The notes under the pieces are model-generated. The model was not told the DNA's origin and made no database searches. It saw nothing but the letters and a program-made list of their open reading frames with translations. This document shows, piece after piece, positions 77 through 29,690 of a stretch of 64,000 nucleotides of DNA; the stretch's first letter is position 1; every line of letters starts with the position of its first letter. The translations under genes and the position numbers were made by a program. The DNA is from Luteitalea sp. TBR-22 (GTDB lineage: Bacteria > Acidobacteriota > Vicinamibacteria > Vicinamibacterales > Vicinamibacteraceae), in the NCBI RefSeq assembly GCF_016865485.1, contig NZ_AP024452.1, forward strand, positions 4,920,501-4,984,500, written 5' to 3'.

Positions 77-940
77 CTACGCGCTGGCGCGCTTGCGGGG
101 CTTCCTGGTCGCGTCGGCGCCCTTGCTGGCGGCGAGCGTGGCCTTGGCAGGAGTCTTCTTGCCGGCGCTCACCGACTCGAGGCTGCGGCGCAGCGCTTCC
201 ATGAGGTCGACGACCTTGGCCGGCGCCTCTTCCTCGGTCTCGACGATCTCCTCGCCGGCGACCTTCGCGTCGATGAGCTTGCGGAGCGCTTCCTGGTAGT
301 TGTCGTGGAAGCTCTTGATGTCGAGGTCGCCCTCGAACGTGCCGATCACCTGCTGCGCCAGCTTGACCTCTGCCGGCTTGAGCGTGGCGGGAACGCCCTC
401 GAGTTCCTCGATCTGCGACATGCTGCGGACCTCGTCGGCCGACCGCAGCGTGTACATGACCAGCCCCTTCTCGCGCGGCTGGACGGCGACGATGTACTCG
501 CGTCCGTAGAGGGCCAGCTTGCCGATGCCGGCCTTGCCCTGCATGCCCTCGCGGATCACCGCGAAGGCCTCCGCCGCGACGTTGCCGTCGGGGGCGAGGT
601 AATAGGGCCGCTCGAAGTAGATCGGGTCGATCTGGTCGACGGTGGTGAACTGGGTGAGGTTGATCAGCCGCGTGGACTCCGGGCGGACCTTCGACAGGTC
701 CTCCTCGCTCACCGTCACGTACCGGCCCTTGGAGAACTCGTAGCCCTTCACGATCTCGGTGTTGGCCACCTCGCGCTCGCAGTGCGGGCACCACTTCTTC
801 TGCTGGATGCGCGTCTGACACTCCTCGTGGAGCTGGTTGAAGCTCACCGTGGCGTGCGCGTCGGTGGCCGGGAACACCCGAATCGGGATGGTCACCAGGC
901 TCAGCTTCAGATGTCCCTTCCACGTCGCACGTGCTGCCAT
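77..940 (-). CDS. ku: Ku-type DNA end-binding protein of bacterial NHEJ
   Basis: The 287-residue product opens with MAARATWKGHLKLSLVTIPI, a typical bacterial Ku start, and contains the Ku core beta-barrel signatures (KWCPHCEREV near residue 55, YEFSKGRYVTV, IDPIYFERPYYLAPD, GIGKLALYGREYIVA). In this family a Ku homodimer threads onto double-strand ends and recruits LigD. The C-terminus is a Lys/Ala-rich tail of about 35 residues, as in many bacterial Ku proteins, probably for DNA or ligase contact. I chose the ATG at 940 rather than the in-frame upstream ATG at 1012 because AAAGGGG lies just upstream of it and the homologous domain begins there. It is divergent from ligD across 190 bp, consistent with a two-gene NHEJ locus. 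Confidence 0.96.
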   Translation of the reverse strand: MAARATWKGHLKLSLVTIPIRVFPATDAHATVSFNQLHEECQTRIQQKKWCPHCEREVANTEIVKGYEFSKGRYVTVSEEDLSKVRPESTRLINLTQFTTVDQIDPIYFERPYYLAPDGNVAAEAFAVIREGMQGKAGIGKLALYGREYIVAVQPREKGLVMYTLRSADEVRSMSQIEELEGVPATLKPAEVKLAQQVIGTFEGDLDIKSFHDNYQEALRKLIDAKVAGEEIVETEEEAPAKVVDLMEALRRSLESVSAGKKTPAKATLAASKGADATRKPRKRASA

Positions 941-1018
941 GGTGTGCCCCTTTGCAAACGCTGCGCCCGACGGCGCGCTGACCTGATGAGCGACGCCCGA
1001 CCTGCGGGGCAACCCACG

Positions 1019-1089
1019 GTGTCCGGGTGTCCGGCGCCCGGTGCCCGGTGACCGGTGACCGGTGCCCGTCCCCGATCCGCAATCCCCGA
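1019..1089. repeat. Degenerate 7-bp tandem array between ku and ligD
   Basis: Consecutive units read GTGTCCG, GCGCCCG, GTGCCCG, GTGACCG, GTGACCG, GTGCCCG, TCCCCGA, TCCGCAA, TCCCCGA, with one extra G after the first. The period of 7 is held through a gradual change of unit sequence. It occupies much of the divergent promoter region of ku and ligD. Confidence 0.8.
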
Positions 1090-1130
1090 AACCTTGCTAT
1101 CGGCCGATGAGACCCCGATGATTACGCCTC

Positions 1131-3269
1131 ATGGCCCGCACGGTCCAGCCCTGGCAGGACACGGCGCCCCCGGCGCCGATGCTCGCCACGCCCTGCGAGT
1201 TGGACGCGCTGCCGCTGTCGAGTTCATCGCTCGTCTACGAGCAGAAGTTCGATGGCATCCGCGCCATCGTGGTCGTCGAGCCCGCCCACCCGGCGGCCCG
1301 GGTGGCCCTGTACTCGCGCAACGGCAACGACAAGGCCGCCCAGTTTCCCGACATCGTGAAGGCCCTGCGTGAGCTGGCGGCCTCGCTGACCGGTCCGGTC
1401 GTCCTCGACGGCGAGATCGTCGCCCTCGACGGGCGCGGCCGCCCGGCCTCGTTCACGGCCCTGCAGTCCCGCATGCACCTGAAGGGCACGCGCGACATCG
1501 AGGCACGGAGCGCGACCGTGCCCACCGCCCTGATCGTGTTCGACCTGCTGCGCGAGGGCCGCGACGACCTGCGCCCGTTGACGCTGGCCGCCCGACGCGC
1601 GCGGCTCGAACACCTCCTCCACGTGCGCACCAGCGAGCGCCTCCGCGAAGGCGCATTCACGGCAGGCGATGGCCACCGCGTGCTGGCGCAGGCCGAGCGC
1701 GAGGGATGGGAAGGCCTCATCGTCAAGGACGCCGACGCGCCGTATCTCTCGGGCGTCCGTTCGCGCACCTGGCGCAAGGTGAAGCTGCACAAGCGCGCCA
1801 CGCTGCTGATCGGCGGCTGGACCGACCCGAAGGGCACGCGTGGGGGATTCGGCGCGTTGATGGTCGGCAGCCCCGTCGATGCGCGCGGCAAGCCCGCCAC
1901 GCCGTCCAGGGACAGCGAGGCGACCCTCTGCTACGCCGGCAACGTCGGCACGGGCTTCAGCGACGCGACGATCACCGACGTCCTGGCGCGCCTGCGGCCC
2001 CTGGCCCGCCCGACGTCGCCGTTCGTCGATGCGCCGCGGGCCCGCGGGCAGCACTGGGTCACCCCGTCGCTGCTGTGCGAGGTGCGCTTCAGCGAGTGGA
2101 CGCCAGACAACCGCCTCCGCCACCCGGTCTTCCTCGGCCTGCGTGACGACGTGGGGCCCGAAGCGGTCGATCCGTGCGGACCGCGTCGCGAGCCGACGAC
2201 CACCGAACGACGGACATCGAGCCTCGAGGGCCACCAGTCCGGCCCCTCGGCCTCGACCGGCACTCGTCACCGAGCACACATACGATCGGCGGACCGGCTG
2301 TCATCGCTCCCCGCCACCCCGCTCGTCGAGCAGTTGCAGGCGCTCGAGGACGCCGGCCGCGACGGCACGCTGGCGCTCCCGGAGGGGCCGCTCGACGTCA
2401 CGAACCTGCGCAAGGTCTTCTGGCCCGCCAGCGGCCTCACCAAGGGCGACCTGCTGCGGTACTACGTCCGCATCGCGCCCTGGCTGCTGCCGGTGATCGC
2501 GGACCGACCGCTCGTGATGAAGCGCTACCCGAACGGCGTGCTGGGCAAGGCGTTCTACCAGCAGCGGGCGCCCGACGCGGTGCCGCCTGGCGTCCGGGTG
2601 GAGACGGTGGAGGGCGACGAGAGCGACGACGGGCCGACGCCGCGGCTGATCGGCGGCTCGCTCATCACGCTGCTCTACGTGGCGCAACTCGGGGCGATCT
2701 CGCTCGACCCGTGGTTCTCGCGGGCTGCGACGCCTGCGCAGGCCGACTTCGTGGCCATCGACCTCGATCCGATGCCGGGGGTCCCCTTCACGCAGGTCAA
2801 GGACGTGGCGCGGTGGGTGCACGAGGCGCTGGTGATGCTCGACATCCCGGCGGCACTCAAGACGTCGGGCTCGTCGGGCCTGCACATCCACATCCCGCTC
2901 GCGCCGGGCACGTCGTACGAATCGGGCCAGCTGCTCTGCCAGATCATCGCGTCGGCGGTGGCCTCGCAGCACCCCAGAGCGGCCACGGTGGAGCGGATGG
3001 TCGCCAGGCGGGGCCGCACGGTCTACGTGGACTACCTGCAGAACATCGAGGGCAAGACGCTGGCCTGCGCCTACAGCGCCCGCGCCAGCCAGTTCGCCGG
3101 CGTGTCCACGCCGCTGCAGTGGAGCGAACTCGACCAGGACGTGCGCCCGGAGGACTTCACGCTCCAGACGGCGCTGGATCGCTTCGAGGAGACCGGCGAC
3201 CTGTGGAACCCGGTGATGCAGGGCCGGGCCGCCGACCTGCACGCCGTGCTGGAGAAGCTGGGAAGGTAG
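1131..3269 (+). CDS. ligD: ATP-dependent DNA ligase LigD (ligase-polymerase, no phosphoesterase domain)
   Basis: This 712-residue protein has an N-terminal ATP-dependent ligase domain (about 15-345): adenylation motif EQKFDGIR with K39, DGEIV at 93-97, EGLIVKD at 194-200 and WRKVKLHK at 214-221. A low-complexity linker (about 346-400) leads to a C-terminal LigD-type primase-polymerase domain (about 415-700), with metal site DLDP (D544, D546), SSGLHIHI at 580-587 and DYLQN (D634). It repairs double-strand breaks with Ku by filling and sealing ends. The 3'-phosphoesterase domain common in other LigD proteins is absent, and the order is ligase then polymerase. The start ATG at 1131 has no strong Shine-Dalgarno sequence but fits the domain start. 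It is divergent from ku. Confidence 0.95.
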   Translation: MARTVQPWQDTAPPAPMLATPCELDALPLSSSSLVYEQKFDGIRAIVVVEPAHPAARVALYSRNGNDKAAQFPDIVKALRELAASLTGPVVLDGEIVALDGRGRPASFTALQSRMHLKGTRDIEARSATVPTALIVFDLLREGRDDLRPLTLAARRARLEHLLHVRTSERLREGAFTAGDGHRVLAQAEREGWEGLIVKDADAPYLSGVRSRTWRKVKLHKRATLLIGGWTDPKGTRGGFGALMVGSPVDARGKPATPSRDSEATLCYAGNVGTGFSDATITDVLARLRPLARPTSPFVDAPRARGQHWVTPSLLCEVRFSEWTPDNRLRHPVFLGLRDDVGPEAVDPCGPRREPTTTERRTSSLEGHQSGPSASTGTRHRAHIRSADRLSSLPATPLVEQLQALEDAGRDGTLALPEGPLDVTNLRKVFWPASGLTKGDLLRYYVRIAPWLLPVIADRPLVMKRYPNGVLGKAFYQQRAPDAVPPGVRVETVEGDESDDGPTPRLIGGSLITLLYVAQLGAISLDPWFSRAATPAQADFVAIDLDPMPGVPFTQVKDVARWVHEALVMLDIPAALKTSGSSGLHIHIPLAPGTSYESGQLLCQIIASAVASQHPRAATVERMVARRGRTVYVDYLQNIEGKTLACAYSARASQFAGVSTPLQWSELDQDVRPEDFTLQTALDRFEETGDLWNPVMQGRAADLHAVLEKLGR

Positions 3270-4572: not shown

Positions 4573-4968
4573 ATGGGCACCGTCGCTCTCCTCCACGTCA
4601 CGCCCGGCCTCGCCGATGGATTGCGGAGCGCCTGCGCGGCGGCAGGGCTCGTGGTCTCTGCGGCACACCTGCACGACCTCGACGCCGGTCACTTCGATGC
4701 CGAGGCGTTCCTCCGCCAGCACGACCCCGTCGTCGTCGTCATCGACCTCGCGCCGCCGTATCCGGTGGCGCTCGAACGACTACAGGTCATCAGTCGGTTG
4801 CCGGCCGCCCAGGGCCGACAGTTGGTCGTCACGGCGCCCGACCCCGCGTTCGTCGCGGCCTCGCTCGATCACGCCGGTCGGCTCATCGAGATCGTCGGGC
4901 AACACGAGGACCTCGGGCCGCTGATCCTCGCCATCAAGGAAGCGACGCGTGCCCGTCCCGGCCGCTGA
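4573..4968 (+). CDS. Pseudo-receiver (response-regulator-like) single-domain protein
   Basis: The 131-residue product has the alternating beta/alpha layout of a receiver domain: beta1 VALLHVT, a central VVVVIDLAPPYP with D58 where the phospho-acceptor would lie, beta4 GRQLVVTAPD and beta5 RLIEIVG. The acidic pair after beta1 and the conserved lysine after beta5 are missing, so classical phosphorylation is doubtful. It ends 6 nt from the convergent end of the sigma-54 activator, which itself lacks an N-terminal receiver, so this may be a detached or partner sensory domain (inference). There is no convincing Shine-Dalgarno sequence and the start is the least certain part. Confidence 0.65.
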   Translation: MGTVALLHVTPGLADGLRSACAAAGLVVSAAHLHDLDAGHFDAEAFLRQHDPVVVVIDLAPPYPVALERLQVISRLPAAQGRQLVVTAPDPAFVAASLDHAGRLIEIVGQHEDLGPLILAIKEATRARPGR

Positions 4969-4974
4969 GCGTCG

Positions 4975-5958
4975 TCAGCGTTCCCTGTAAGTCGACCAGG
5001 CGATGCCGAGCTTGCGCATGCGGGCTCGCAGCGTGTGGGGGTTGACCTTGAGCAACCGGGCGGCACCGTCCGGGCCTTCGATGCGACCACGTGTCTCGGC
5101 CAGCGCCGCCTCGATGTGGCGACGAATGGCCTCGTCGAGCGGGACGATGCGGCCGGCCGGCGCGAGTGCGGCCGCGACTTCGGGCGACACGCTCCTCGAC
5201 GGGCCGCCTCGGCCGAGCGCCGCCGCGATCTCGAGCGAGCGCCCCTGCCCGAGCAGCACGGCGCGATCCATCACGGCCGACATCTCGCGCACGTTGCCCG
5301 GCCAGCGATACTCGCGCAGGAGTCGTTCGTGTTCGTCGGTCACGGGCACCGGACGCACGCCGAAGCGATCCGAGGCGCGACGCGCGAAGTACTCGGCGAA
5401 CTCGCGGATGTCGTCGGGGCGATCGCGCAGCGGCGGGATCACCACCGGGAAGACCGCGAGGCGGTAGTAGAGGTCGTCGCGGAAGGCGTGAGCCTCGACC
5501 ATCTCGGGGAGATCGCGGTGGGTCGCGGCGATCAGGCGCACCTTCACGCGGACGGGCCGGTCACCGCCGACACGCACCACCTCGCCGTCCTGCACGACCC
5601 GGAGCAGACGCACCTGCGCCGGAAGCGACAACTCCCCCACCTCGTCGAGGAACAGGGTGCCGCCGTCAGCCTGCTCGAACCAGCCCTGCCGCTGGGTGAG
5701 GGCCCCCGTGAAGGCGCCCTTTTCATGCCCGAAGAGTTCCGAGTCGATCAGCTCGGGCGGGATCGCACCACAGTTCACGCGGCGAAAGGGCCCGAGCCTG
5801 AAGGACGACTCCTGGTGGATGAGGCGCGCCACCACTTCCTTGCCGGTGCCGGTCTCGCCAAACAGCAACACGGGAGCGTTGCTGCGCGACACCATGCCGA
5901 CCCGCTCGAGCACGCTGGCCAGGCCCGTCGTGCTCCCGACAATTCGCTCTGTGACCAC
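4975..5958 (-). CDS. Sigma-54-dependent activator with AAA+ and Fis-type HTH only
   Basis: The protein has 327 residues. It begins directly with the AAA+ sigma-54 interaction domain: Walker A GETGTGKE (34-41), GAFTGA loop (81-86), Walker B TLFLDE (101-106), and RLAVFPVVIPPLRDRPDDI with the arginine finger region. A C-terminal Fis-like HTH of the FhlA/NorR style follows (GPDGAARLLKVNPHTLRARM). It opens sigma-54 promoters by ATP hydrolysis. The usual N-terminal GAF, PAS or receiver domain is absent, as in PspF. The start is a GTG with an in-frame stop codon three codons upstream, so no longer form exists. A near-perfect 35-bp palindrome lies 25 bp upstream, in the divergent region shared with the TonB receptor, and is a likely binding site. 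Confidence 0.93.
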   Translation of the reverse strand: MVTERIVGSTTGLASVLERVGMVSRSNAPVLLFGETGTGKEVVARLIHQESSFRLGPFRRVNCGAIPPELIDSELFGHEKGAFTGALTQRQGWFEQADGGTLFLDEVGELSLPAQVRLLRVVQDGEVVRVGGDRPVRVKVRLIAATHRDLPEMVEAHAFRDDLYYRLAVFPVVIPPLRDRPDDIREFAEYFARRASDRFGVRPVPVTDEHERLLREYRWPGNVREMSAVMDRAVLLGQGRSLEIAAALGRGGPSRSVSPEVAAALAPAGRIVPLDEAIRRHIEAALAETRGRIEGPDGAARLLKVNPHTLRARMRKLGIAWSTYRER

Positions 5959-5982
5959 GCCGTCTTATATCACGGCTTCAGC

Positions 5983-6017
5983 CATCACATTTGACGGCAA
6001 TGCCGTGACATGTGATG
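5983..6017. promoter_or_regulatory. 35-bp near-palindrome, candidate binding site of the sigma-54 activator
   Basis: CATCACAT (5983-5990) mirrors ATGTGATG (6010-6017) and, with the same centre at base 6000, ACGGC (5994-5998) mirrors GCCGT (6002-6006). Fifteen of seventeen position pairs are complementary. It lies 25 bp before the activator and 83 bp before the TonB receptor, the usual upstream position of an enhancer-type or autoregulatory site. Confidence 0.65.
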
Positions 6018-6099
6018 GGTCAACCGTGAACACATCCTGAAATGACCGAAAAACCGACATCCCAGACTTGGCCCGGCGGCTGCACATAGAAGGGCCGGC

Positions 6100-8799
6100 A
6101 TGGTACAGACACCTTATTTCCCCTTTGTTCAGGCGACCTCGCGGCGCCATCGGGCCGCCTTCCACGTCCTCTCGGTCCTCATCGTCGGCATATCGACACT
6201 GGTCGGCAGCGAGGTGGGCGCACAAGTGGCGAACACTGACGGCGGTTCGGCAGCCCCGCAGGCATCACAGGCCATCGCGGGCGCGACCCTCCCGAGCATC
6301 ACGGGCGTCGTGCGCGACACCGCCGGGCTGCCGATGCCCGGCGTCGTGGCGCGCGTGCTGACCGAGGGCGGCCAGGGCGTCGGCGAGGCCATCAGCGACG
6401 AGAACGGCGTGTTCCGGATCGACGTGCGTCGGGCCGGCCGCTACCAGGTGCAGGTCACCCTCGAGGGGTTCGAGCCGGTGACCCGCCCCGTGGACGCCTC
6501 GATGGGCGGCATCGTCTCGGTGGACGTCGCCCTCGAGCCGCGGATGTCGGAGATGGTGGTGGTCGCCGCGCGACGCATGGACGAGGCGCTGCAGGCCGCG
6601 CCGATGACCGGGTCGGTGGTCGAGGGCGAGCAGCTCAACGACGCTGGCGCCTTCAACGTCAACCGTCTGCGCGAGCTCGTGCCGACGGTGCAGTTCTTCT
6701 CCACCAATCCCCGCAACTCCTCGGTGAGCATCCGCGGCCTCGGCCTGCCGTTCGGATTGACCAACGACGGCATCGAGCCGGCGGTGGGCATGTACGTCGA
6801 CGGCGTGTTCTTCGCGCGGTCGGCGGCGGCCACGCTCGACCTCGTGGACGTCGAGCGGATCGAGGTGTTGCGAGGTCCGCAGGGCGCCGGTTTCGGCCGC
6901 AACACGACGGCCGGAGCGATCAGCGTGGTCAGTCGTCGTCCGAGCTTCACGCGCGAGTTCGACGCCGAGGTGACCGCCGGGTCGCTGGGCTTCGCGCAGG
7001 TCAAGTCCAGCGTCAACGTCCCGCTCGGCGCCCGGCTGTCGACCCGGTTCGCCTTCTCGGGCACCAGCCGTGACGGCCTGCTCTACAACACGACGACGCG
7101 CAGCGGGCTGAACGAGATGAACAACGTCGGCGGGCGCGGGCAGGTGCTGTACGCGCCGACCGACGGCTTCGCGATGGTGCTGGCCGCCGATCACACGCGC
7201 CAGCGTCCGCAGGGCTTCGCCCAGGTGGTCGCCGGTGTCGCGCCGACGCTGCGTCCGGCCAATCGCCAGTTCCCGCAGATCATCGCCGACCTGAACTACA
7301 CGCCGCCGTCCTACAACGCCTTCGATCGCCTGACCGACGCCGACACGCCGCATCGCTCGAACCAGGACCTCGGCGGCACGTCGCTGACGATGGAGAAGCG
7401 ACTCGGGTCGGCCAAGCTCACTTCGATCACCGCGTGGCGCTACTGGAACTGGGACCCGTCCAACGACCGCGACTTCCTCGGCCTGCCCGTGACGACGGTC
7501 TCGGCCAACCCGTCGAAGCAGCGGCAGTTCACCCAGGAGGTCCGCTACACGACGCCGTTGACGAGCAAGATCGCCTTCTCGGGCGGCGTGTTCGCCTTCC
7601 ACCAGTCGATCGACTCCGACGGCCGCCAGGAGCACGGCTCGGCCGCCGCGCGCTTCCTGCTGCCGCCGACCCAGGCCGCCCTCACGCCCGGCCTGCTCGA
7701 CGGCTACGGTCAGGTCGCCGACATCCAGTCCTCGTCGACGGCGGCCGCGCTCTTCGGCCAGGCCGAATGGTCGGTCACCGACCGGCTCACGCTGATCCCC
7801 GGCATCCGCCTCAATCACGACCGCAAGTCGCTCGACTACGACAGCCAGGTGTACGGCGGCCTGCAGACCACCGATCCGGTGCTGATCGCGCTGCAGCGCT
7901 CGGTGCTCGCTCCCCAGCAGTACGCGGCAGACGTCCGCGACACCAACGTCACCGGGCAGTTCACCGCGCGGTACCTGCTTGCGGGCACGACGCACGTCTT
8001 CGGCACGGTGTCGACGGCCGTCAAGCCGATCGGCCTGAACATGAACGGCGTCCCGGTCGACAGCACCGGCGCGCCGATCGTCAGCGCGGCCACGGTGCTG
8101 CCCGAACGCGTGCGCCACGCGGAGGGCGGCATCAAGACCGAGCCCTGGCGCGGCGTGCGCCTCAACCTCTCGGTGTTCAACACCGACGTGCACGATTTCC
8201 AGGCCAACGTGGTCAATGCCGACGTCGGCGTGCTGCGCGGGTACCTGGCCAACGCCGACCTGGTGCGGGTGCGGGGCGTGGAATTCGACGGCGCCGCCGA
8301 GATCACCAGTGCCGTATCGGTGTTCGGCGCGGCCGCCTGGACCGACGCGCGGTACGCCCGGTTCACCGACGCGCCCGCCCCGCTCGAGGAGACGGGTGGG
8401 CCGCTGGCCAAGGACATCTCGGGCAGCCGCCTGCCCGGCGTGCCCGAGTGGGCGCTCACCTTCGGCGTCGAGGCCCGTCGCGGCGCGACCCTGTTCTCGC
8501 AGTCCGGTGAGTTGTTCGTCGCCGGCGACACCAGCTACCGCACCGAGTTCTCGTCGAGCGCCACGCCGTCCCTCTACCTCAACGTGCCGGCGTACGCGCT
8601 GGCCAACCTGCGGGCGGGCTACCGCTGGGGCAACGGCTGGATGGTCTCGGTGTGGTGCCGCAATGCGTTCGACACCGATTACCTGGAACTGCTCTCGGCG
8701 GCCCCGGGCAACTCGGGACTCTACGTGGGCATGCCGGGCGAGCCCCGCACCTGGGGCGTCACGCTGCGCATGGCCCTCCGCTCGCCGGGGCGTCCATAG
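6100..8799 (+). CDS. TonB-dependent outer-membrane receptor with carboxypeptidase-like N-domain
   Basis: The protein has 899 residues. After a signal region (hydrophobic core about 20-40) comes a CarboxypepD_reg-like beta-sandwich starting SITGVVRDTAGLPMPGV (about 66-148), then a TonB plug (about 150-290; NSSVSIRGLGLPFG, YVDGVFFAR, VERIEVLRGPQGAGFGRN) and a 22-strand type barrel to the end. It resembles the iron-complex/siderophore receptor branch rather than the Oar branch, because of length and the closing GMPGEPRTWGVTL. It would take up a substrate through the outer membrane with TonB-ExbBD energy. GAAGGG 5 nt before the ATG supports the start. It shares its upstream region with a sigma-54 activator and is followed after 37 nt by a chromate-type transporter, possibly co-transcribed. 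Confidence 0.93.
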   Translation: MVQTPYFPFVQATSRRHRAAFHVLSVLIVGISTLVGSEVGAQVANTDGGSAAPQASQAIAGATLPSITGVVRDTAGLPMPGVVARVLTEGGQGVGEAISDENGVFRIDVRRAGRYQVQVTLEGFEPVTRPVDASMGGIVSVDVALEPRMSEMVVVAARRMDEALQAAPMTGSVVEGEQLNDAGAFNVNRLRELVPTVQFFSTNPRNSSVSIRGLGLPFGLTNDGIEPAVGMYVDGVFFARSAAATLDLVDVERIEVLRGPQGAGFGRNTTAGAISVVSRRPSFTREFDAEVTAGSLGFAQVKSSVNVPLGARLSTRFAFSGTSRDGLLYNTTTRSGLNEMNNVGGRGQVLYAPTDGFAMVLAADHTRQRPQGFAQVVAGVAPTLRPANRQFPQIIADLNYTPPSYNAFDRLTDADTPHRSNQDLGGTSLTMEKRLGSAKLTSITAWRYWNWDPSNDRDFLGLPVTTVSANPSKQRQFTQEVRYTTPLTSKIAFSGGVFAFHQSIDSDGRQEHGSAAARFLLPPTQAALTPGLLDGYGQVADIQSSSTAAALFGQAEWSVTDRLTLIPGIRLNHDRKSLDYDSQVYGGLQTTDPVLIALQRSVLAPQQYAADVRDTNVTGQFTARYLLAGTTHVFGTVSTAVKPIGLNMNGVPVDSTGAPIVSAATVLPERVRHAEGGIKTEPWRGVRLNLSVFNTDVHDFQANVVNADVGVLRGYLANADLVRVRGVEFDGAAEITSAVSVFGAAAWTDARYARFTDAPAPLEETGGPLAKDISGSRLPGVPEWALTFGVEARRGATLFSQSGELFVAGDTSYRTEFSSSATPSLYLNVPAYALANLRAGYRWGNGWMVSVWCRNAFDTDYLELLSAAPGNSGLYVGMPGEPRTWGVTLRMALRSPGRP

Positions 8800-8836: not shown

Positions 8837-10033
8837 ATGCAGGCACACACGTCCCCGGCCACGCCCGCGACCGCTGACGCGATCCACGTCCCGGCGTGGC
8901 AGTTCTACCTGTACTTCCTCCGGCTCGGCGCCACCGGCTTCGGCGGCCCGATCGCCCTTGCGGGCTTCATGCAGCGGGATCTGGTGGAGCAGAAGCGCTG
9001 GATCTCGCGCGAGGACTACACCGACGGCCTGGCGCTCGCGCAGCTGGCGCCCGGCCCGCTGGCCGCGCAGTTGGCCATCTACCTCGGCTACGTGCGCGGC
9101 GGCAGGGTCGGCGCGACCATCGTCGCGGCGTGCTTCATCCTGCCGTCCTTCCTGATGGTCTGGGCCCTGTCGGTCGCCTACGTCAGGTTCGGCGGCCTCC
9201 CGTGGATGCAGGCGCTGTTCTACGGCATCGGCGCCGTGGTGATCGGCGTGATCGCACGGTCGGCCCAGAAGCTGACCGCGCTGACGCTGGGACGCAGCCC
9301 GCTGCTCTGGGCGATCTTCGGGGTGATGGCAATCACCACGGCATGGACGGAGCGGGAGATCGCCTGGATGTTCATCGCGGCAGGCGTCCTCACCACGCTG
9401 ATCGCGACCTGGCGCATGGCCCGGGAGGAGCGGCAGTTGGACGCCTCGGGCGCCGGCCTGTTCGCGCTCGCGTCGGCTCCCCTGGCCACGGCTGCCGTGC
9501 CCCCGACCCTCACCACGGTGTTCTGGGTGTTCGTCAAGGCCGGCGCGTTCGTGTTCGGCAGCGGCCTGGCGATCGTCCCCTTCCTGTACGGCGAGATCGT
9601 GCAGGTGCAGGGCTGGCTGACCGATCGGCAGTTCCTCGACGCGGTGGCGGTGGCGATGATCACGCCCGGCCCCGTGGTGATCACGGTGGCCTTCATCGGC
9701 TACCTCGCGGCCGGCACGTGGGGCATGACCGCGGCGGCGGTGGGCGTCTTCCTGCCGGTGTACGTGTTCGTGGTGCTCCCTGCGCCCTACTTCCGGAAGC
9801 ACCGGTCACAGCCGCAGATCAAGGGCTTCGTCGACGGCGTGTCGGCTGCGGCCACCGGGGCGATCGCCGGCGCCGCCTGGGTGCTCGCGACACGGGCGCT
9901 GGTCGACGCGTGGACCGTGCTGCTCGCGGTGACCGCCTTCGTCGTGCTGTGGCGCTGGAAGGTCTCCGAGTTGTGGCTCATCGCCGGTGGCGCGCTGGTC
10001 GGCCTGCTCGTGGCAGGTGCCGCGCGGTCCTGA
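8837..10033 (+). CDS. chrA: Chromate transporter family (CHR) permease, two-domain form
   Basis: This 398-residue membrane protein shows the duplicated CHR layout. The first half carries FLRLGATGFGGPIALAGFM, then GLALAQLAPGPLAAQLAIYLG; the second half repeats it with FVKAGAFVFGSGLAIVPFL and AVAVAMITPGPVVITVAFIG. About 10-12 membrane segments are visible. Family members export chromate, which enters through sulfate systems; many are of unproven specificity. It starts 37 nt after the TonB receptor on the same strand, with GAGG upstream of the ATG, so the two may be co-transcribed, although a functional link is not obvious. Confidence 0.93.
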   Translation: MQAHTSPATPATADAIHVPAWQFYLYFLRLGATGFGGPIALAGFMQRDLVEQKRWISREDYTDGLALAQLAPGPLAAQLAIYLGYVRGGRVGATIVAACFILPSFLMVWALSVAYVRFGGLPWMQALFYGIGAVVIGVIARSAQKLTALTLGRSPLLWAIFGVMAITTAWTEREIAWMFIAAGVLTTLIATWRMAREERQLDASGAGLFALASAPLATAAVPPTLTTVFWVFVKAGAFVFGSGLAIVPFLYGEIVQVQGWLTDRQFLDAVAVAMITPGPVVITVAFIGYLAAGTWGMTAAAVGVFLPVYVFVVLPAPYFRKHRSQPQIKGFVDGVSAAATGAIAGAAWVLATRALVDAWTVLLAVTAFVVLWRWKVSELWLIAGGALVGLLVAGAARS

Positions 10034-29581: not shown

Positions 29582-29627
29582 TCAGCCTCCGGGCGCAAGG
29601 CGCCCTGGGCTGACAACGTTCACGGCC

Positions 29628-29667
29628 GAGCCCGGCCCTCCACCTGGGGGGCCGGGCTCGTTTCGTT
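29628..29667 (+). terminator. Rho-independent terminator of the Oar-like receptor gene
   Basis: GAGCCCGGCCC (29628-29638) pairs perfectly with GGGCCGGGCTC (29649-29659) around a 10-nt loop, followed by GTTTCGTT. It lies 47 nt past the stop codon. Confidence 0.85.
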
Positions 29668-29690
29668 CCGGCAGCCATGTTCCGGAGCCT

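Follow-up and report, generated by a model that had tools for sequence, protein, structure and literature searches.

Within the window, by which we mean the whole 64,000-nucleotide stretch of the Luteitalea sp. TBR-22 genome that was analysed, a sigma-54 activator gene and a TonB-dependent receptor gene diverge from an intergenic region that holds a near-perfect palindrome. Pfam domains confirmed the description of the flanks given in an earlier note made from the sequence, namely a sigma-54 activator without a sensory domain on one side and a TonB receptor on the other. The features discussed below are as follows.

4975 to 5958, minus strand: sigma-54 activator (bEBP), 327 aa, GTG start; Pfam Sigma54_activat, AAA_lid_14 and HTH_8, no N-terminal sensory domain
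5960 to 5975, no strand assigned: operator A (predicted), CCGTCTTATATCACGG, matrix score 21.1, one of three matches above 10 in the window; abuts the activator start codon
5964 to 5969, minus strand: TATAAG, a weak, possible -10 hexamer of the activator gene, picked by eye inside operator A
5977 to 6023, no strand assigned: the whole palindrome, with 19 of 23 pairs; operators B and C form it as inverted copies around base 6000
5982 to 5997, minus strand: operator B (predicted), CCGTCAAATGTGATGG on that strand
6003 to 6018, plus strand: operator C (predicted), CCGTGACATGTGATGG
6068 to 6084, plus strand: predicted sigma-54 -24/-12 element, TTGGCCCGGCGGCTGCA, 49 nt after operator C, with 12 of 14 consensus letters and facing the TonB receptor
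6100 to 8799, plus strand: TonB-dependent receptor, 899 aa, the proposed target; Pfam TonB_dep_Rec_b-barrel, Plug and CarboxypepD_reg
8837 to 10033, plus strand: chromate-transporter-type (CHR-family) gene that follows the receptor; PF02417, and TIGR00937 above cut-off

The core of the palindrome, CATCACATTTGACGGCAATGCCGTGACATGTGATG at 5983-6017, is centred on the A at 6000, and a direct count of pairs bore out the claim of a 35-bp near-perfect dyad: 15 of 17 pairs are complementary, the mismatches falling at arm positions 7 and 9. That such a dyad is unlikely by chance also held. It is the sole palindrome with an odd centre and at least 15 of 17 pairs in the 64-kb window, first-order Markov shuffles of the window gave a mean of 0.1 such places (maximum 1 in 60 shuffles), and an equal palindrome arose in 0 of 20,000 shuffles of the intergenic region (5959-6099). 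The genome search that the earlier note had proposed returned a single exact match to CATCACAT-N19-ATGTGATG in the 6.47-Mb genome and, among the matches listed at up to three mismatches, five other places, all with three. The only other palindrome of comparable quality in the window is even-centred, at 29643, where a GC-rich hairpin (29619-29668) is followed by a few T's in a terminator-like arrangement.

A palindrome of this kind might act as RNA, either as a hairpin in the leader of the activator transcript or as a terminator, and predicted folding is indeed strong for either strand (-22.6 and -20.6 kcal/mol, z -4.8 and -3.7). Any perfect palindrome in DNA will fold once transcribed, however, and a terminator scan gave no terminator-like site at the palindrome, which lies upstream of the predicted receptor start. 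Furthermore, the related loci L012, L108, L013 and L014 carry the component units in arrays without one long hairpin. We therefore consider a role as RNA extremely unlikely and favor a reading in which the palindrome is a composite of protein-binding sites on DNA.

Beyond what the earlier note described, the palindrome can be broken down into two inverted copies of a 16-bp operator with a consensus of about CCRTSAYATRTSAYGG, each arm being nearly self-complementary, and operator A is a third copy. From centre to centre, A to B measures 22 bp and B to C 21 bp, or about two helical turns. With a matrix built from these three sites, A, B and C score 21.1-22.9 and the rest of the window 9.9 or less; a pattern fitted to A, B and C matches the genome exactly only at B and C (n=2). 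The central AT is invariant across 17 collected sites, a descriptive statement, as the sites were picked by eye and by the matrix. A fourth operator, suspected by eye at about 6024-6040, was not borne out by the matrix. Operator A stops one base short of the regulator's GTG and takes in the TATAAG on the minus strand, and a consensus scan found no sigma-70 promoter near the dyad.

What the operators are positioned to do is suggested most directly by the -24/-12 element, which the earlier note did not mention either. Scoring was by 14 letters of the sigma-54 consensus, and the score at 6068-6084 was equalled in 0 of 500 shuffles of 6019-6099. The start of this 17-mer lies 49 nt after the nearest operator, and a similar geometry (48-50 nt) was found at three other promoters, those of two TonB-receptor orthologues (48 nt in L012, 50 nt in L108) and that of a porin-sulfate-transporter operon (48 nt in L147). 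An equal match at these three offsets would arise by chance with a probability of 0.00085 in L012, where a second candidate of equal score (10 of 14 letters) lies at offset 99 and distance decided in favour of that at 48; for L108 the figure was 0 of 40,000 and for L147 0.0011. TonB orthologues in genomes without a close regulator had at most 8 of 14 sigma-54 letters (nine usable controls). The receptor is thus preceded by a -24/-12 element, and by upstream sites at a conserved distance from it (the sites being predicted binding sites), as is characteristic of a sigma-54 promoter with an upstream activating sequence. This shared operator-to-promoter geometry is our main reason for calling the palindrome an upstream activating sequence.

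The earlier note had suggested that the site could set autoregulation of the adjacent regulator, and the proximity of operators to regulator genes gives this some weight. Besides operator A in the window, operators in L012 and L108 overlap the regulator start codon (ATG), and in L109, L013 and L014 they lie just upstream of the regulator gene. Because operators touch the activator start in the window, L012 and L108, autorepression via operator A is plausible. Operators B and C, on the other hand, are probably not mainly autoregulatory because they are fixed 48-50 nt from a sigma-54 element that faces the TonB receptor, as in the three other promoters, that of L147 being distant from every regulator gene; in the genome G059, moreover, the receptor has an array of its own about 7 kb from the regulator. 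That the main role of the dyad is to repress or boost the activator gene is therefore unlikely, and the main target of the site is probably the receptor and not the regulator. This argues against autoregulation only as the sole role; it may coexist with receptor control. Accordingly, the part of the suggestion that stands is that the site is tied to the sensor-less activator, with 16-bp units recurring beside its orthologues, and the part that probably does not is that autoregulation is its main job.

Comparison with relatives bears on both the operators and the protein that might bind them. Among 162 genomes of the order, regulator orthologues at 71-74% identity were found in G059, G029 and G110 (the contig of the last and L012 are the same sequence); G006 has a homologue at 56%. 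When 396 genomes were drawn from the phylum and searched at a stricter cut-off (1e-105), no further close orthologue turned up. TonB orthologues at E 1e-200 or better were present in 16 of the 162 genomes, the window's own included. Our control set was drawn from the 15 besides the window's, 11 of which were used (2 with the regulator and 9 without); L151 was dropped for having only 89 nt upstream, and L157, L158 and L159 for a truncated match, which led to a wrongly extrapolated upstream position (the 9 of 14 sigma-54 letters of L158 belong to this group), while L150 was kept with only 315 nt upstream. The matrix built from the window alone detected arrays before the TonB gene in L012 (spacing 22 and 22) and L108 (20 and 18), the two genomes besides the window's own where regulator and receptor occur together. 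L012, the nearest locus, has the same divergent regulator-TonB layout and a short regulator. The best matches in G059 are four at one mismatch, two of which precede the regulator and the receptor. By contrast, of the nine usable controls, whose genomes lack a close regulator, eight show no operator before the TonB gene (P 0.10 or more). In L152, the exception, a single operator-like match falls in the start region of a leader rich in Cys, with no -24/-12 element at the expected distance from it and no close regulator found in the genome. The best regulator homologues in the genomes of these nine controls reach 44-51%, with none at 1e-75 in G044.

We also scanned upstream of 83 regulator homologues (80 of 573, plus L108, L109 and L111; 100 shuffles each). 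At 59% identity or more, an operator was found upstream in five of five (L012, L013, L014, L108 and L109; P at most 0.04), with two units 23 bp apart in L014, two units 21 bp apart in L109 and maybe three in L013, 22 and 20 bp apart, of which two are weak. L013 is labelled KSB1 and L014 Pirellulales. The 56% homologues L015 and L111 have no operator by the window matrix, two homologues near 50% are borderline (L016, P 0.06; L019, P 0.05), and of the remaining homologues with a computed P only L077 fell below 0.05 (0.03). Conservation of the dyad near orthologous regulators, which the earlier note had taken as decisive, is therefore found for the component 16-bp operators and not for the 35-bp palindrome as such.

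As binding by the activator is something we infer, the sites could belong to another factor, such as a CRP/FNR-type protein or a repressor, with the neighbouring activator not binding at all. The CRP consensus is TGTGA-N6-TCACA and the arms do contain TGTGA-like letters, but their order is opposite to that of a CRP site. The operator also tracks orthologues of the activator from Acidobacteria to KSB1 and Pirellulales (as the loci are labelled), fading with identity, and arrays are missing from TonB orthologues in genomes without a close activator. Given this pattern we judge another factor very unlikely, and we see good support for reading the 16-bp units as regulatory binding sites that go with the sensor-less sigma-54 activator.

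The genes found near the operator and the receptor in other species point to a physiological theme. In G029 the operator with the highest score precedes genes encoding a Porin_O_P porin, a sulfate-binding protein (510 bits, cut-off 288) and CysT (416 bits, cut-off 246). In L013 and L111 a sulfate-binding-protein gene diverges from the regulator, although L111 is one of the loci without an operator by the matrix, and the L015 regulator lies downstream of matches to sulfate-binding-protein genes. TonB orthologues have as neighbours TauE/SafE, CysD and CysN in L116, Sbp and CysA in L117, and TauE/SafE, an Rrf2 regulator, CysD and CysH in L154; CysH is also near the TonB orthologue in L152 and in L153, the latter again with an Rrf2 regulator. 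No sulfur-gene neighbours were seen by eye for the TonB orthologues of L115, L155 and L156. Within the window, no classical sulfur gene adjoins the receptor or activator, and the genome has no TIGR00971 sulfate-binding protein. A search of the same genome for operators, its cysD/cysN cluster included, yielded no second convincing target: the best score at that cluster (9.7) is inside a reading frame and was not counted, and among the next best matches, 4663802 is inside a reading frame and 6106290 lacks the central AT (it lies between a phosphoesterase-like gene and one of unassigned function, as judged from reading frames); no gene begins convincingly after 678254. Because of the sulfate transporter and Cys gene neighbours in relatives, sulfur acquisition is likely to be the regulated theme, by association with neighbours in other species.

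Some observations on the relatives stand apart from the operator. Rrf2-family regulators (L153:7502-7948 and L154:6217-6681) adjoin the TonB receptor and sulfate-assimilation genes and are CymR-like, though both score below the CymR cut-off of 195, with 84 bits for the L154 protein. Short Cys-rich ORFs (for example MTFSHSTCCRACCACAACRCACMQPTTGR) precede the TonB orthologues of L116, L115, L153, L154, L155, L156 and L108; they share a C-x-PT ending, and the shuffle P was 0.02 or less in six of the seven and 0.08 in L108. Such a leader is weak in L012 (P 0.21) and there is none before the window's receptor. G059 also has a second TonB-like outer-membrane protein (L108:8763-11804) with a leader ORF, MVRLPFFCCCCCRSPRGRCHVQG, before it. 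The short Cys-rich ORFs resemble the polycysteine leader ORFs of mycobacteria, which act as cysteine attenuators (PMC4633059, and Canestrari 2020 through text citing it). The two cases differ in phylum and target gene, and the likeness is separate from the palindrome, the window having no such leader. We also considered a copper leader of the CruR type; according to PMC9426467 CruR is much longer and carries CXXC and RAPP motifs, and for this reason the cysteine reading is preferred for the Cys-rich ORFs.

With regard to the activator itself, alignment showed the GAFTGA motif, Walker A and the HTH to be intact, giving the AAA+ domain with GAFTGA and the HTH expected of a bEBP, and the genome has an RpoN gene. 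Right before the activator start, inside operator A, comes an in-frame TAA, and the activator therefore has no longer reading frame. L013 and L014 are examples of homologues extended at the N-terminus, by about 190 residues, a region in which no Pfam-named domain was found. Since the window's protein has no sensory domain while homologues carry this extra region, it is probably controlled through its amount. It fell below the curated cut-off in all 25 listed NCBIfam families for known bEBP subfamilies (of 27 matched), scoring 316 against 476 for NorR and 256 against 444 for PspF, with NifA and NtrC also below. The 56% homologue in G006 (L111:2792-4579), itself divergent from a sulfate-binding-protein gene, apparently has two tandem copies of the C-terminal HTH. 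A 131-aa ORF at 4573-4968 (plus strand) converges on the window's activator gene; it has no Pfam match and is absent from the other loci compared.

We regard it as quite likely that the palindrome comprises two of the three operators of the divergent sigma-54 activator and serves as the upstream activating sequence of the promoter at 6068-6084, which would drive the TonB receptor. Computation directly gave the operators and how they are spaced, the fixed distance to the -24/-12 element, the co-occurrence with the regulator and the sulfur context in relatives. On these results, which like all the evidence here are computational, a working model can be placed as follows: (i) activator dimers would bind each 16-bp operator through the C-terminal HTH; (ii) with operators about two helical turns apart, the AAA+ domains could be brought to one face of the DNA for oligomerisation; (iii) the oligomer would contact sigma-54 RNA polymerase about 50 nt away and open the receptor promoter; (iv) in a protein without a sensory domain, output would follow the cellular amount of activator and (v) occupancy of operator A by the activator would limit its own synthesis. 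The CHR-family transporter gene behind the receptor is possibly co-transcribed with it and may be included in the target. The process induced would most likely be sulfur acquisition, with sulfur limitation as the presumed signal.

A sigma-54 activator with its upstream activating sequence is an arrangement of a known kind. In NtrC- and NorR-type promoters, paired near-symmetrical activator sites lie upstream of the -24/-12 element; the window's operator differs from these in sequence and its activator, as noted, falls below every listed family cut-off. PspF, like the window's activator, consists of AAA+ and HTH without a regulatory domain, but no psp genes are adjacent in the window and the score is well short of the PspF cut-off. 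SfnR of Pseudomonas putida lacks a sensory domain and is governed by its amount, through CysB. As a sigma-54 activator of dimethyl sulfone use, in sulfur scavenging under sulfate limitation, SfnR would be the nearest functional parallel to the proposed sulfur role, a likeness drawn from paper titles; it belongs to another phylum, and its targets are monooxygenase genes whereas those proposed here are a TonB receptor or a sulfate transporter. That some bEBPs have no regulatory domain is also stated in PMC7175178.

A broader scenario, which we consider somewhat less likely than not, is that these sites belong to an undescribed sigma-54 regulon for sulfur acquisition that spans several phyla with a single operator, about CCRTSAYATRTSAYGG. 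Within a small group of acidobacteria the activator would have lost its sensory region, becoming a dose-controlled and self-limiting switch, and would have taken over receptors that relatives control otherwise, perhaps by a CymR-like repressor and Cys-rich leader peptides. Our literature search, which covered part of the literature, found no report of the operator or regulon, and a term search of the main text of a sigma-54 regulon survey (PMC12316311) returned neither 'Acidobacteri' nor 'sulfate'. With this locus, a group of regulators that had no described role gains a concrete candidate promoter and operator. In acidobacteria, sulfur acquisition and TonB uptake would thereby be linked to control by sigma-54, a link for which we found no report in the literature searched. 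A sensor-less activator with N-terminally extended close homologues also offers a natural case for how such activators are controlled.

Elsewhere in the window, at 77-3269, a Ku-like frame (77-1012, minus strand) lies beside a LigD-like frame (1131-3269, plus strand), a putative Ku/LigD end-joining pair.
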